Below are positions 27,168-50,210 of a DNA stretch of 50,210 nucleotides, piece by piece. A program made the translations under genes and the position numbers. Source of the stretch: a virus; IMG/VR virus record IMGVR_UViG_3300028800_000015, positions 1 to 50,210 of that record. The stretch is one strand, 5' to 3'. Within the stretch, counting starts at the first letter, position 1, and the number at the start of each line of letters is the position of its first letter. A model generated the notes under the pieces. The model ran no database searches and was not told the DNA's origin. It was given only the letters and a program-made list of their open reading frames with translations.

Positions 27168-28076
27168 TCAGTCGAGGTAGCCTGCGGTCGGACGGTCATC
27201 GAACTCCGGGTGCTCGGTGAAGAACGTCAGCAGCGTTGCACAGTGCCACATGACAGCCGCCAGGTGTGACGAGCCGAGCTCGGTGTCGAAGTTCTCGCCG
27301 TTCCACCAGGCGATCGCGTGCCGCTGAAGAGCAGCGTACGACTTGCTCCACTCGAAGCCCTGGCGCCAGTTGTTCGGTGGGTACTTCTCTGCCGTACGCC
27401 CGTAATGCTCGGCCAGCGCGGTCAGTGCCTCGGCCGGGATCAGGTCGTGCCGAGCGAGCTTGACGCCCTTGAGTCCACCCGTGACTGACTTCGAGATCCA
27501 CTCACCGTGGATGATCTGGGCGACCGGCTCGGCCTTCTCCTCGACGAACACGTCTTCGGCGCAGCAGTCGGCTGTCAGGCAGTCACAACCATGCAGTGCC
27601 TCGTCGAGACTGAGGATCGGAATGTGGATCGCTGTGGCAAGAGCCGTCTCAGCGAGAGCACCACTGGAGTCACGCCAGCCGTCCAGCACGACGACAGCAT
27701 CGGCGTACTTGGCGATCCACTGTGTGTCGTCAGCCAGCGCCTCGCGCACACTGAAGCCCTCACGTTCGGCGACTTCGTACTCATTACCGGTATCGGACTT
27801 CTCGAAGCCGTTGCCGTAGACCATCCGGTCACGCTCGGCGGGCGAGAAGACGTGGTAGCCAGCAGCGCGGAGCTTCGCCGCTCCTGCGTCGAACGCCGGG
27901 AAGTTGAAGTCGGGCAGACCGCGCATCGGGCCGGCGAGATAAACCTTCCTGATGCCAGCGATTGTCTTCGGGCAACCAGTGCGGTCAGTCGGAGAAGTCG
28001 TGATCGACGTGAGATCCTGGTACTCGGTTGCGCTCGTACTGGCGACGGGCTTCTGCTGCTTCTGCTTGCGCGGCAT
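27168..28076 (-). CDS. Fusion of DUF4406 deoxyribosyltransferase-like and DUF5664 dNTP diphosphohydrolase-like domains
   Basis: This 302-residue protein appears to join two nucleotide enzymes. Residues about 43-160 match DUF4406, related to nucleoside 2-deoxyribosyltransferases: YLAGPMRG (46-53), NFPAF, a D132-G-W segment and the putative nucleophile E143 in S-G-A-L-A-E. Residues about 203-295 match DUF5664, the family that includes MazZ-type dATP/dGTP diphosphohydrolases: KLARHDLIPAEAL, KYPPNNWRQG, RHAIAWWNGE261-x2-D264 and HLAAVMW. A Cys-rich linker (C164, C166, C171, C172) connects them. Such a protein could reshape purine deoxynucleotide pools. No PurZ partner was found. GAGG lies seven bases before the ATG. 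Confidence 0.78.
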   Translation of the reverse strand: MPRKQKQQKPVASTSATEYQDLTSITTSPTDRTGCPKTIAGIRKVYLAGPMRGLPDFNFPAFDAGAAKLRAAGYHVFSPAERDRMVYGNGFEKSDTGNEYEVAEREGFSVREALADDTQWIAKYADAVVVLDGWRDSSGALAETALATAIHIPILSLDEALHGCDCLTADCCAEDVFVEEKAEPVAQIIHGEWISKSVTGGLKGVKLARHDLIPAEALTALAEHYGRTAEKYPPNNWRQGFEWSKSYAALQRHAIAWWNGENFDTELGSSHLAAVMWHCATLLTFFTEHPEFDDRPTAGYLD

Positions 28077-28281
28077 CCTTGGTCCTCTTCTCGATCTCGC
28101 GGTTGATGTACCAGACGGCCTTGCGAAGATCCTCGATCGCGTCGGACTTCAGGTCGCAGCGCCAGATGTACTTGACGGCGTTGCCGAGGTTGAAGTTCAT
28201 GTGCTCGACGACGGCGATGCACTCGACACCACTCGGGTGCCCTGCGTAGTGCTGAGGATGGTTGACGGCATCGTCAGACAA
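27985..28281 (-). CDS. DUF3310 family protein
   Basis: This 98-residue protein matches DUF3310: VNHPQHYAGHPSGVECI near the N-terminus and NFNLGNAVKYIWRCDLKSDAIEDLRKA in the middle, then a charged helix. The family is often annotated as a nucleotide kinase-like protein but its role is unproven. The TTG start at 28281 has AAGGAG seven bases upstream; ATG starts upstream would run into the phosphoesterase gene. It overlaps the fusion gene by 92 bases in another frame, a large overlap for this genome. Confidence 0.8.
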   Translation of the reverse strand: MSDDAVNHPQHYAGHPSGVECIAVVEHMNFNLGNAVKYIWRCDLKSDAIEDLRKAVWYINREIEKRTKDAAQAEAAEARRQYERNRVPGSHVDHDFSD

Positions 28282-29329
28282 CGTACTGCTCCTTCTCCAG
28301 TCCGATCTCTTCGGGCTTCGCCAGGAAGATCTTGTACTGGCTCGCGACGTGGCCGGACTCGGGCTCGATAAAGTGCAGTCGCTGACTCGGAAGAGCCGCC
28401 GCCGCCATGCCGTCTCGGGCGTAACGGTTGTCACTTTCGGTCGAGCCAGTCTGGTAGACCGCGCCGATTCCGTTCGCCATGGCCCACTCGGCGTGGTTGT
28501 GATAGTGGCCGACGTAGACGTCGCGGAAGGGCCAGTTGTACGCACCAGAACGCCAGCGGTTGCAGTGGTTGACGATCGTCATGGGCGACGCGAAGCCGCC
28601 TCGGCCGATCTCGTCGCCGTGGATCAGCAGCGCGCGGTAGTTACCGATCTCGATGCGCTGGATATCCTCGGACGTGTCCGACCAGGTGACGTGACCGAGG
28701 TCTGCGCAGAACGCCGACGCCAGCTTGTACGTCATCCGGTCGGCGTTGTCGCTCTTCGGTACTGCATCGCGCTTCGAGCCGAGCCGGCCGTGGTTGCCCC
28801 ACTCACCGATGACTGTGACGTCGTGGTACTCGGCCGCCGCGAAGCGCACGACGTGCTCGATCAGCCGCGCCACGTAGACGTACTGGTCGAAGAGCTCCTT
28901 GTCGATCTCGTACGGTTGCGTCGGGAAGTTGAACAGACCCTCGATCATGTCACCGCCGAGAGCGATCGTCACAGCGTCGACAGGGTGGTCAGCGCGCTGG
29001 ATCTCGGTGATCCGGTGTGCCTTCGACAAGAAGAGCTTGACGCGAGCCGTCATCACCTCGGAGTTGTACGAGGTGGTCAGCTTCGAGCCTTGCCAATCGG
29101 TGAGGTGCCACAGGCTGTGTTCAGGCTTGCCCTTCTTGGTGCTGCGCCGCGGGCGGACGATCTTCTCGGGCGGCCCGAACGCTGACGCCGCTGCCAGAGC
29201 GCCTTCGTACGCTGCCTCGGCGAGCGTTGCCTTCTTGTCCTTGGCCTTGGCGAGTTGCTGCGCCATCAGCCGCATGGCCTGGCGCATCTGCTGGCGATCA
29301 AGGTCATCGTCCAAGCGCAACGACTCCAT
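28274..29329 (-). CDS. Calcineurin-like metallophosphoesterase
   Basis: This 351-residue enzyme belongs to the metallophosphoesterase superfamily, which hydrolyses phosphodiesters or phosphomonoesters with two metal ions. The metal ligand motifs appear in order: H-L-T-D-W-Q-G, G-G-D-M-I-E-G, G-E-W-G-N-H-G-R, H-G-D-E-I-G and V-G-H-Y-H-N-H. A helical N-terminal 50 residues precedes the domain. The GNHGR variant and nearby gene content recall MRE11-like nucleases, but the substrate is unknown. GAGG is seven bases before the ATG. It sits unusually among head genes. Confidence 0.85.
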   Translation of the reverse strand: MESLRLDDDLDRQQMRQAMRLMAQQLAKAKDKKATLAEAAYEGALAAASAFGPPEKIVRPRRSTKKGKPEHSLWHLTDWQGSKLTTSYNSEVMTARVKLFLSKAHRITEIQRADHPVDAVTIALGGDMIEGLFNFPTQPYEIDKELFDQYVYVARLIEHVVRFAAAEYHDVTVIGEWGNHGRLGSKRDAVPKSDNADRMTYKLASAFCADLGHVTWSDTSEDIQRIEIGNYRALLIHGDEIGRGGFASPMTIVNHCNRWRSGAYNWPFRDVYVGHYHNHAEWAMANGIGAVYQTGSTESDNRYARDGMAAAALPSQRLHFIEPESGHVASQYKIFLAKPEEIGLEKEQYVV

Positions 29330-33938: not shown

Positions 33939-33958
33939 CAAGCGATTGTAAGTCCTAG

Positions 33959-34027
33959 CGGGGCACCGAGGACTCGAACCTCGGACTTCGGGAGCGACCC
34001 GAGCGACCTACCGTTGGCCTATACCCC
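33959..34027 (-). tRNA. tRNA-like gene (anticodon probably CGC)
   Basis: The minus strand folds as a cloverleaf of 69 bases. The acceptor stem pairs GGGGTAT with GTGCCCC (including G-U pairs), the D stem GGCC with GGTC, the anticodon stem CTCGG with CCGAA, and the T arm CGAGG-TTCGAGT-CCTCG is canonical. The loop centre reads CGC after T33, which would be Ala. There is only one base between acceptor and D stem, a three-base variable loop and an unusual base after the anticodon, so it could be a divergent or decayed tRNA. It sits just upstream of the terminase start. Confidence 0.55.
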
Positions 34028-34870: not shown

Positions 34871-35061
34871 AGGTCTGCTCCGTTCCTTCGTAGGGTGGAT
34901 CTGAGATTGAGCACCGCGCGCTTGTCGCCCGGTGTGCTGCCAGTGAAGATGGGCATACCTCCCTTGGGACTTAGCAAGCGGTAGTGACCGTTCTTCAGGG
35001 TTATGGACCAGCCCTGGTCGGACAGTTTGTTGAGGATCTCCTGGAGCGATCCTCGCTTCAT
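34867..35061 (-). CDS. HicA-like small protein
   Basis: This 64-residue protein looks like the HicA mRNA-interferase fold: an N-terminal helix (LQEILNKLSDQGWSI), a strand with G-H-Y-R-L-L containing the likely catalytic His, and S-T-P-G-D-K-R-A ahead of a C-terminal helix with R-R-N-G. No HicB-like antitoxin is next to it. The start overlaps the glycosyltransferase stop (ATGA). Related lone genes occur in actinophages; whether this one cleaves RNA is unknown. Confidence 0.7.
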   Translation of the reverse strand: MKRGSLQEILNKLSDQGWSITLKNGHYRLLSPKGGMPIFTGSTPGDKRAVLNLRSTLRRNGADL

Positions 35062-35999
35062 TGCGAGTAGGCCCACGACTCGATGAACAGTCCACCTGGC
35101 GGTGGTCGAAGAGCGTCCGCCATCTTGGCGTAGTGCCTTGCAGTAGCGGAGCGACCTGATGCCAGGTGCAGATGCTGGAGCTGACGCATAGGTTCAGCGC
35201 GTTCCCAGTTCGTCAGTTCAACCGCCTCTTCGAGCCAGTGCTGAGCCTCGTTGTTGTCGACGCCCATCAGTAACTTGCCGAGTTCGTATGCGGCCTGTGC
35301 AGTCTCTGGCTTCCAGCCATCGGTGCATCCCAGCCGTTCCCGGTACATAGTTCGTGCCATGTCAAGGTCACCGAGATCTCGGTACTCGTTGGCGATGTAG
35401 AAGAGGGTCCGCGGACTCTCGTCGCCATCATCGAGCATCGACGACATGATGCGAAGGTTGCGACGTGGATCTGACGGCTTCCCGTTTGGCCGGTGCTCGA
35501 CCCAGACGGTCTTGTTGCGTACCGACCGACCATAGGCGACTGCGATGGTCTCGTGCACGCGACCTTCCCAGCGCAGACCAGCTTCGCGCCGAATCAACCG
35601 CTCGCGGTCAAAGCAAAGAGTGACTTCGCCGAGAGCGCCGATCATGCGGTATTCGCAAGAGACTGCGTCGATGATGTTGGCCGACATGACCGCACTACGG
35701 CTCAGCATCGAGTTGATCGCCATGGCTGCCTCAGTCGGCAAGTGGTCGTCAGCATCGAGCCACAGAATCCAGTCGCTGGTGCAGAACTCGAAGGACAGAT
35801 TGCGTGCCCACGCGAAGTCATCACGCCACGCCGTTGTCGCGACCTCGGCGCCGTACTCCTCGGCGATCTCCACCGTGGCATCCGTCGAACCAGTGTCGAG
35901 GACAACGAGCTCATCACAGCAGATGCTCGCTTCTTCGAGCACGTTGGCAATCCTGTCCGCCTCATTACGGACGATCATGGCGAGACTCAGGGTCGGCAT
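35058..35999 (-). CDS. Family 2 glycosyltransferase with TPR-like C-terminus
   Basis: This 313-residue protein belongs to the GT2 (GT-A fold) glycosyltransferases that move a sugar from a nucleotide donor. It shows A-M-I-V-R-N-E-A at the start, L-D-T-G-S-T-D-A-T around residue 35 and the metal-binding L-D82-A-D84-D85. The C-terminal 110 residues have helical repeats with Y-R-D-L-G-D-L-D-M-A-R and similar TPR-like units. It has no membrane segment. It may glycosylate virion proteins, DNA bases or a host target; context does not decide. It overlaps both neighbours. Confidence 0.85.
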   Translation of the reverse strand: MPTLSLAMIVRNEADRIANVLEEASICCDELVVLDTGSTDATVEIAEEYGAEVATTAWRDDFAWARNLSFEFCTSDWILWLDADDHLPTEAAMAINSMLSRSAVMSANIIDAVSCEYRMIGALGEVTLCFDRERLIRREAGLRWEGRVHETIAVAYGRSVRNKTVWVEHRPNGKPSDPRRNLRIMSSMLDDGDESPRTLFYIANEYRDLGDLDMARTMYRERLGCTDGWKPETAQAAYELGKLLMGVDNNEAQHWLEEAVELTNWERAEPMRQLQHLHLASGRSATARHYAKMADALRPPPGGLFIESWAYSQ

Positions 36000-36184
36000 G
36001 GACAACTCGATCCGCGCTTGTGCGCCTCCTCGTTGGGGTCGGGCAACGTGCCGACGCGATGAAACCACTCGCGGTCGATCAGAGTCTGCTGGCGCCGACC
36101 TGTCGCCGGCCGATCGAGCCAGTCACGAAGGTTCTCAGCGGCGTGCTCGGGCACGCGAAGCACGACGGTAACGAAGTGATCCAT
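35987..36184 (-). CDS. Small hypothetical protein (65 residues)
   Basis: This encodes 65 residues with a strand-rich start (MDHFVTVVLRVPE), a helix, and a C-terminal S-S-C-P-C motif. Its family is unknown. The ATG overlaps the upstream stop (ATGA) with GGAG seven bases before it. It overlaps the glycosyltransferase start by 13 bases. Confidence 0.65.
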   Translation of the reverse strand: MDHFVTVVLRVPEHAAENLRDWLDRPATGRRQQTLIDREWFHRVGTLPDPNEEAHKRGSSCPCRP

Positions 36185-39114: not shown

Positions 39115-40389
39115 TCAGACTCGGCCGTCGACGGCAACCAGCCTCTTCGCCAGCCACTCAAAGACTGGCACCGCGACGGAGTTACCCATCATGCGGTAGC
39201 GGTGGCTATCGGCCATTTCGCGGCCATCGTGGCCGTAGCGCGTCCAGTCATCAGGGAAGCCCTGAAGCCGCTCGCACTCCCGCGGGGTGAGACGTCGCAC
39301 TCCAGTCTCCAGTGAGCCAGGATCGGCGATCAGCGTCGTTGCGCGCACGTCTCCGGTGTTGTCTGCGAGGTTGAGAGTGTTGGCGAAGTCCTCCTCGACC
39401 CACGTCTCGAAGTCTTCGGTGTTCTGCGCACGTCGGCCCTTGCGAAACGTCGCGACCAAGTTGTCCGTACCGTCACCGCGAGGTGAACTGTGGCCGTGAT
39501 GGCCCATGCTTGCCGTCAGGGTCGATGCCACCTCACGACTCGCAGCGATCAGATGACCAGCTTGCGCCATGCCGTCGCTGACTCCTTGAGTCGTCAGCGC
39601 TCCAGTGACGAGCAACTGGCCGCCAGCAGCGCCTTCGGCATCGACTCGATAACCGCGCTTGCCGCCGCCCTGTAGGGTCGAAGTCACCTCGGAAGTAACG
39701 AGCAACTGACCAGCCACGGCCGTCTTGTCGTCGATACCAGCCGTCGTGAGTGTGGTCGCTACTTCTCGGGTCGGCTGGCTACGATGCGTAGCGCTTGGTC
39801 CAGCAGCGGTGGCAGAGTCCGGCCGCGCCGAGTGGCGCGAAGGAGGATTCCCTTGCACGCTCTCGTTGAGAGCCAATACTTCAGCGGCACTTCGGACGTC
39901 TCCACGACGTCCGACAAGGACGACACGACGGCGTCGTTGGGCCACTCCGAAATACTGCGCGTCGAGCACGCGCCAGGCGACGCCATACCCGAGGTCGGCC
40001 ATCGTTGCAACGACGGTGCCCATGTCCCGTCCGCCGCTCGAAGTAAGCGCGCCTGCAACGTTTTCCCAGACGAACCAGTCCGGCTGGCACTCGTCGACGA
40101 CGCGGGCGTAGTCGAAGAAGAGGCTGCTGCGTGAGCCATCCAGTCCAGCTCTTGCTCCAGCCACGCTGAGGTCTTGGCAGGGTGTGCCGCCGATGATGAC
40201 ATCGGCGCTACCTCGTCGGACATGGGTCTCCTTCAGGTCAGAAGCGATGTGAACGGTCGGCCAGTGATGGCGCAGCACCGACTGACAGTGCTTGTCCCAC
40301 TCGACCTGACCAATGATCGTGGCGCCAGCGCGCTCGAAGCCGAGGTCGATGCCACCGACACCGGAGCACAGTGATCCGACTCGCAGCAT
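39115..40389 (-). CDS. C5 cytosine DNA methyltransferase
   Basis: This 424-residue enzyme methylates cytosine at C5, probably to protect phage DNA from host restriction. The motifs occur in order: motif I around L7-C-S-G-V-G-G, motif IV G-G-T-P-C71-Q with the catalytic Cys, motif VI F-V-W-E109-N110-V, motif VIII Q-R-R-R-R-V-V-L-V-G and motif X G-N-S-V-A-V-P. Residues about 180-340 carry repeated E-V-A-T/S-T-L-T and T-S-T-L-Q-G-G-G units. No partner restriction nuclease is present. The ATG overlaps the upstream stop (ATGA). Confidence 0.93.
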   Translation of the reverse strand: MLRVGSLCSGVGGIDLGFERAGATIIGQVEWDKHCQSVLRHHWPTVHIASDLKETHVRRGSADVIIGGTPCQDLSVAGARAGLDGSRSSLFFDYARVVDECQPDWFVWENVAGALTSSGGRDMGTVVATMADLGYGVAWRVLDAQYFGVAQRRRRVVLVGRRGDVRSAAEVLALNESVQGNPPSRHSARPDSATAAGPSATHRSQPTREVATTLTTAGIDDKTAVAGQLLVTSEVTSTLQGGGKRGYRVDAEGAAGGQLLVTGALTTQGVSDGMAQAGHLIAASREVASTLTASMGHHGHSSPRGDGTDNLVATFRKGRRAQNTEDFETWVEEDFANTLNLADNTGDVRATTLIADPGSLETGVRRLTPRECERLQGFPDDWTRYGHDGREMADSHRYRMMGNSVAVPVFEWLAKRLVAVDGRV

Positions 40390-40535
40390 CAGTCGACCCA
40401 CTCGACCGTCGGGAGCGGCACCGTCGGATGGGTCTCGCTCGACTCGTGCTGGACGATGACCTCAACGGCCAGCGCCTCCAGTTCGTCGGTATCGAGTGAG
40501 GAGACATCGAAGGTGAAGACGATGTGTGTGGTCAT
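40389..40535 (-). CDS. Small acidic protein upstream of methyltransferase (48 residues)
   Basis: This 48-residue protein has a strand start (MTTHIVFTFDV), a D-T-D-E-L-E-A-L helix and a P-T-V-P-L-P end. GGAGGA lies seven bases before the ATG. It overlaps both neighbours. The family is unknown. Confidence 0.6.
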   Translation of the reverse strand: MTTHIVFTFDVSSLDTDELEALAVEVIVQHESSETHPTVPLPTVEWVD

Positions 40536-49551: not shown

Positions 49552-50210
49552 GAGGAGATCTCCTTGCCTGACCACCGATGGCCGAGCACCTCGGCCGTGG
49601 CAGTGAACGGAACGTGCTTGATCTTAGCGGTCATCGCGCGCTCCAACACAGCGCACGCCTCTTCCTCTTGGCCGTGTGGCACTTCGAGCACGATCTCATC
49701 GTGAATGTGCAGCCAGATTCGATGCGCCCAGCCGGCATCGGCCAGGTTGACGAGAGCATCGCCGAGCAGGTCGCGCCCGGTGGACTGGATGGCATAGTTA
49801 CCCATTGCATAGGGTCGGAATGGATCACGCGGGATGACGCGACCCCACGGGTTGACGATCTCGTTGGCTGTCGCCATCTTGTCGCGCCAGTTGACGTACA
49901 CACGGTAGGTGCGATTCCACGCCAGCCACATTGCCTTGGCTTCGGCAATAGGGATCTTCAGCATCAATGCGATGCGCTTGGGGCCAGCTCCGAACTGGAT
50001 GGCGTAGTTCAGCGTCTTGGCGATCTTCTCGCGCTGGTACTCGGTGAAGTTCTCACCGAAGAGTCCGCGTGCGGTGATGTCGTGCCAGGAGTCGCCACCG
50101 AAGACGATCGCGTTGAAGTTGGGGTCGTTGCTGTACGCCGCGGCAATGCGGATCTCCTGGCTGTCGTAGTCAGCCTTGACGAGCGAGAATCCATCACGGG
50201 CGATCAGCGT
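49548..50210 (-). CDS. polA: Family A DNA polymerase, C-terminal third (starts at 1-1279)
   Basis: This is the rest of the 604-residue polymerase, continuing in frame from position 1 through the circular join; 50084-50210 duplicates 1-127. It contains motif B, with K449 and Y453 in A-K-T-L-N-Y-A-I-Q-F-G, and motif C with H554-D-E. Tyr453 aligns with E. coli Phe762, as in T7 polymerase. It ends overlapping the resolvase start. Confidence 0.95.
   Translation of the reverse strand, partial: TLIARDGFSLVKADYDSQEIRIAAAYSNDPNFNAIVFGGDSWHDITARGLFGENFTEYQREKIAKTLNYAIQFGAGPKRIALMLKIPIAEAKAMWLAWNRTYRVYVNWRDKMATANEIVNPWGRVIPRDPFRPYAMGNYAIQSTGRDLLGDALVNLADAGWAHRIWLHIHDEIVLEVPHGQEEEACAVLERAMTAKIKHVPFTATAEVLGHRWSGKEISS
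50084..50210. repeat. Right copy of 127-bp terminal direct repeat
   Basis: This is identical to 1-127 and marks closure of the molecule. If it is an assembly overlap, one copy should be dropped, which gives a genome of 50,083 bases. Confidence 0.95.

Follow-up and report, generated by a model that had tools for sequence, protein, structure and literature searches.

An open reading frame of a soil phage (27168-28076, minus strand, of the window, i.e. of the whole 50,210-nt stretch of DNA analysed) carries a DUF4406 domain and a DUF5664 domain in a single chain of 302 aa. The protein probably combines two enzymatic activities that degrade deoxynucleotides in two coupled steps. Such fusions are no isolated case; in most of the DUF4406 phage loci sampled, the domains were neighbours or fused. 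Our reading builds on the presence of both domains with intact active-site residues, the fold of the N-terminal half, the 61% identity of the C-terminal half to an assayed protein, the recurrent linkage of the domains and the absence of PurZ. From these we infer which reactions the fused protein catalyzes, that they are coupled, which bases are removed and to what end. In the literature searched, no description of the fusion or of a DUF4406-DUF5664 association was found. The combination of an NDT-type domain with a dNTP pyrophosphohydrolase is already known; new is DUF5664 as the partner.

Domains of the fused protein

The reading frame starts with ATG and is preceded by AGAGG. Alternative starts were not found, as no ATG, GTG or TTG occurs between M1 and Y46. 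Pfam searches matched both halves, DUF4406 (PF14359) in residues 44-155 (27612..27947, minus strand) with E 5.4e-17 and 62.4 bits against a cut-off of 22, and DUF5664 (dGTP_diPhyd_N, PF18909) in residues 200-295 (27192..27479, minus strand) with E 1.1e-29 and 102.7 bits against a cut-off of 27. The two-domain fusion proposed in the initial annotation is thus real. PF05014 (Nuc_deoxyrib_tr) matched the N-terminal half at 2e-4, under its Pfam cut-off. The PHROGs labels were nucleoside 2-deoxyribosyltransferase (phrog_355) for the N-terminal and dATP/dGTP pyrophosphohydrolase (phrog_801) for the C-terminal half. An AlphaFold2 model based on 79 aligned homologues showed two confident domains with pLDDT mostly 90-98 (mostly 90-97 in the N-domain), joined by a disordered, low-confidence linker at residues about 160-197. 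The fused chain recurs as an identical protein in IMG/VR record L002 and in several diverged relatives, and an assembly error is therefore excluded.

The C-terminal half was 61% identical over 105 aa to gp51 of Arthrobacter phage Wayne (ALY10775.1), which shares DUF5664, is without DUF4406 and is encoded beside a PurA-like (PurZ0) gene. Purified gp51 cleaves dATP with a kcat of 0.48/s, dUTP with 0.22/s and dGTP with 0.053/s, the products being monophosphates (PMC12884076). The earlier idea of an enzyme of the purine dNTP pool is supported, and the C-domain is a predicted dNTP pyrophosphohydrolase. Wayne gp51 has 90 extra N-terminal residues, which are not a second DUF5664 copy; we count this against the preferred explanation. 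All near-invariant residues of the family, K231, Y232, R252, H253, D264 and H271, were present and are kept in 52-56 of 56 homologues. H253, D264 and H271, together with the less conserved E261, form a conserved cluster (27264..27320, minus strand), with K231, Y232 and R252 just upstream of it in the protein. Of the two residues that had been singled out before, D264 held up (52/56), while E261 was less conserved (42/56); the other five near-invariant residues had not been named.

The label MazZ-like fits the C-terminal half by the measured activity of DUF5664 proteins, yet descent from MazZ is not supported at the sequence level. A profile search of PDB sequences with the C-terminal half gave no match and no MazZ, and the EExxE...ExxD pair of metal motifs was absent from residues 195-302, so that homology to MazZ was rejected at this level. 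With Foldseek the C-terminal half gave only insignificant PDB matches, including 2p06, 2oie and 7bgm (E 2-4), which we take to belong to the all-alpha NTP-PPase superfamily; the lack of a significant fold match also counts against the preferred explanation. A single-protein IMG/VR search with this half returned the same phage only. MazZ of cyanophage S-2L resembles DUF5664 proteins in converting purine (d)NTPs to (d)NMPs, but is a (d)GTP-specific enzyme with a MazG-HisE fold and the metal site that is missing here (PMC8342488).

Active site and predicted substrate of the DUF4406 domain

Foldseek matched the model of the N-terminal half to NDT structures and MilB with a probability of 1.00 and E about 1e-3, and on the strength of the model we assign it to the NDT/DNPH1/MilB fold. 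Conservation was counted in 117 homologues, all below 80% identity. Y46 (27939..27941, minus strand) at the position of the catalytic tyrosine (DmtZ Y6, DNPH1 Y24) was kept in 117/117. D117 (27726..27728, minus strand), the predicted acid/base residue, lies 26 residues before the nucleophile as does DmtZ N77 (116/117). E143 (27648..27650, minus strand) at the nucleophile position (DmtZ E103, DNPH1 E104) was glutamate in 115/117, in accord with the nucleophile assigned initially. Y46, D117 and E143 occupy the triad positions of the NDT superfamily (DmtZ Y6, N77 and E103). G139 was present in all 117 homologues and P79, which by Wayne numbering corresponds to the transferase-type Pro57, in 115. 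The equivalences of R52, D117 and P79 were derived from spacing and motif, not from a solved structure.

Two further residues bear on the substrate. R52 (27921..27923, minus strand; 98/117) is located six residues after the catalytic tyrosine like DNPH1 R30 and MilB R23, to which it corresponds by spacing. S137 (27666..27668, minus strand; 115/117) is found six residues before the nucleophile and matches the phosphate-binding serines S98 of DNPH1 and S97 of MilB; at this position the MilB alignment has a Ser, while the nucleoside deoxyribosyltransferase 7m5h has an Asp. The counterparts of S137 and R52 bind the 5'-phosphate or the base (PMC10603095). Therefore, the predicted substrate is a 2'-deoxynucleoside 5'-monophosphate and not a nucleoside. 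The N-domain looks like a dNMP N-glycosidase or a phosphodeoxyribosyltransferase, i.e. a transferase of deoxyribose-5-phosphate, and the earlier description as deoxyribosyltransferase-like gives way to that of a dNMP enzyme. The NMP N-glycosidases DNPH1/Rcl and MilB share the Tyr/Asp/Glu set (with Phe for Tyr in MilB), the Ser at -6 and the Arg at +6 (PMC10603095); however, their sequence identity to the N-terminal half is very low and they have no attached pyrophosphohydrolase.

Two points count against the preferred explanation. DmtZ reads adenine via D12, and its D12R variant is inactive (PMC12884076). Because R52 stands in place of D12, dAMP may by analogy not be a substrate of the N-domain. 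In addition, no assayed DUF4406 domain was found in the published literature searched.

Relatives and linkage of the two domains

The closest analogue is DmtZ-DutZ of phage Wayne (ALY10777.1), in which an NDT-family domain is followed by a dNTP pyrophosphohydrolase in one chain (PMC12884076). It turns dATP into adenine via dAMP (PMC12884076). The N-terminal half of the fusion and DmtZ have in common the catalytic Tyr, the Glu and an S-x-G motif ahead of the Glu. On the other hand, neither half of the fusion showed BLAST similarity to DmtZ-DutZ, and in BLAST and profile comparisons of the N-terminal half with DmtZ nothing significant was found except the S-x-G-x-x-x-E stretch. The second domain of DmtZ-DutZ is a dUTPase (PF00692) in contrast to DUF5664 (PF18909), DmtZ has D12 in place of R52, and the Wayne genome possesses PurZ0, the window does not. 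The N-domain is a branch of the NDT superfamily separate from DmtZ, with the second domain exchanged for another pyrophosphohydrolase family. The "purine trans deoxyribosylase" of Stenotrophomonas virus Jojan60 (UPU15984.1) has DUF4406 and DUF5664 in one chain and in the same order as the fusion; it differs by the host group, Pseudomonadota, and by a longer linker, and its record names the function of the N-terminal half only.

The linkage was assessed in 80 IMG/VR loci collected starting from an alignment of DUF4406 only. With a local C-domain profile DUF5664 was located within about 5 kb in 39/80 loci, nine of them fused. A PF18909 search of the remaining 41 records matched 26, with 23 on the same strand at less than 5 kb, mostly 20-520 nt away. 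In total 62/80 DUF4406 loci had a same-strand DUF5664 at a distance of no more than 5 kb (60 without two matches below the Pfam cut-off); removal of near-copies left 53/69 non-redundant loci. In 24 control records picked by an unrelated methyltransferase, many of which are shorter and from different environments, the linkage was seen once.

Fusions existed in both orders. DUF4406 preceded DUF5664 in the window, L003, L004, L034, L046, L047, L058, L066, L072, L174, L176, L186, L188, L189, L191 and Jojan60; the reverse order was seen in L018, L020, L022, L023, L025, L027, L051 and L116. This implies at least two joining events, a conclusion that rests on the two orders, the tree of the DUF4406 domain having too few columns for counting fusion events. 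Judging from the existence of fusions, their two orders and the strong link in the neighbourhood, the domains may well catalyze successive steps of one reaction sequence. A further fusion partner of DUF4406, in L182 (4971-5954) and in L183, was a deoxynucleotide monophosphate kinase (PF21448, phrog_139); this suggests dNMP as the metabolite in common. In L032 (7998-8768) DUF4406 was fused to DUF6378, a domain that may also act on nucleotides. Gp113 of Mycobacterium phage Teaspoon (L040, 4321-4914) is a tandem of DUF5664 with an apparently degenerate first copy and a 4-nt overlap with the adjoining DUF4406 gene, which hints at DUF5664 acting as a dimer. The GC content was 63-69% in the fusions with DUF4406 first and 42-66% in separate pairs; a tie of fusion to high GC was thus rejected, and the pattern probably reflects the host group.

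Proposed reaction, alternatives and genomic context

The window has identical direct terminal repeats of 127 bp (1-127 and 50084-50210) and the polA frame crosses the junction; therefore it represents a complete genome, assembled as a circle of about 50,083 bp. Its terminase was nearest to those of Streptomyces phages with about 43% identity. PurZ/PurZ0 (PF00709) was absent from this complete genome as well as from 41 phage records carrying DUF4406, 40 of which have the pair fused or adjacent while the other is the kinase fusion L182; a large part of these records may be incomplete genomes. The lone PF00709 match occurred in the bacterial genome of L034, where it is presumably the bacterium's own PurA.

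We propose that the C-terminal DUF5664 domain would cleave a dNTP into dNMP and pyrophosphate, with dATP as the most likely substrate and dUTP and dGTP as further ones. The dNMP would bind to the N-terminal domain by its 5'-phosphate site and be attacked by E143 with release of the free base; the deoxyribose-5-phosphate would stay on the enzyme and then pass to water or, in part, to another base. Acting by itself, a pyrophosphohydrolase would be caught in a futile cycle with the dNMP kinases of the host; removal of the base makes the loss final. Pairing of both domains would thus prevent host kinases from rebuilding the dNTP, and the shift of the pool would become irreversible. The purpose would be pool balancing in replication with no base substitution. 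The pyrophosphohydrolase step and the coupled sequence have been demonstrated by others in relatives, and the precedent of DmtZ-DutZ supports the two-step reading.

The purpose may also be a cleaning of the pool or an exchange of bases, and these two are the main rivals of pool balancing. In a base exchange DUF5664 would supply the dNMP, DUF4406 would move its deoxyribose-5-phosphate to another base and a kinase would regenerate a dNTP, i.e. a salvage as carried out by DmtZ with the Z base. DmtZ performs both hydrolysis and transfer (PMC12884076), and the transferase-type proline P79 is kept in nearly all homologues. A DUF4406-dNMP kinase fusion exists, and a DUF3310 gene with the predicted PHROG label "nucleotide kinase" (27985..28281, minus strand) covers, in a different frame, about 92 nt at the start of the fusion. 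Yet no donor or acceptor base system was visible in this genome, PurZ is absent, and the P57A mutation of DmtZ left the balance of transfer and hydrolysis unaltered by HPLC (PMC12884076). We regard base exchange as rather unlikely. The DUF3310 gene showed no constant linkage in relatives.

If the fusion served in pool cleaning, it would clear non-canonical nucleotides such as dUTP/dUMP, hydroxymethyl-dUMP or damaged and methylated purine nucleotides before their incorporation into DNA. R52 and S137 agree with DNPH1, an enzyme that prefers hmdUMP as substrate, the DUF5664 protein of Wayne cuts dUTP, too (PMC12884076), and there was no recognisable dUTPase (PF00692) in the genome. But the Wayne protein is faster on dATP than on dUTP (PMC12884076), and the sole tie to modified nucleotides is the DNA methyltransferase gene at 39115-40401, the only base-modification candidate among the ORFs scanned with PHROGs; PADLOC matched it to type II and cytosine methylases, i.e. 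it is a possible cytosine methyltransferase. We hold pool cleaning to be quite improbable. Support of modified DNA, with 2-aminoadenine or another purine, would work like in Z-phages by depleting the normal purine dNTP, and would be in line with the PurZ0 neighbour of the closest C-half relative. Without PurZ in the complete genome or in the 41 DUF4406 phage records, and with no other base-replacement enzyme among the ORFs scanned, it is highly improbable. Z-DNA support was rejected as unlikely on account of the missing PurZ, just as the initial annotation had expected a purpose other than 2-aminoadenine DNA. Its suggestions of modified DNA or of starving a host defence found no positive evidence in the genome. 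PADLOC had no model for the fusion, which was rejected as a candidate defence or anti-defence gene.

We favor the view that the fusion dismantles dNTPs for pool balancing. Because the pair travels together in many unrelated phages without the known modified-DNA pathway, it is probably a common, overlooked phage route to nucleotide-pool control. Tentatively, and with somewhat less than even confidence, we extend this to a general scheme in which DUF4406 and DUF5664, fused or adjacent, are widespread in PurZ-less phages and accomplish an irreversible two-step dismantling of selected dNTPs for pool control or against the host, with the enzymes of Z-phages as one specialised offshoot. The data suggest that dNTP dismantling is much commoner in phages than the described Z-DNA cases. 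Many phage annotations list DUF4406 and DUF5664 under "unknown function" or under a misleading name; the function of DUF4406 is directly testable via one purified protein.

In the window the phrog_284 "exonuclease" gene (28274..29329, minus strand) may belong to the unit as its third member. A relative of this exonuclease/metallophosphoesterase type directly adjoins the DUF4406 gene or the fusion in several related phages (L004, L008, L176, L186 and L189). Elsewhere, the window contains one phage tRNA-Ala (CGC; 33958-34027) just upstream of the terminase gene, and a glycosyltransferase-like gene (35058-36068; phrog_13126, beta-1,4-glycosyltransferase).
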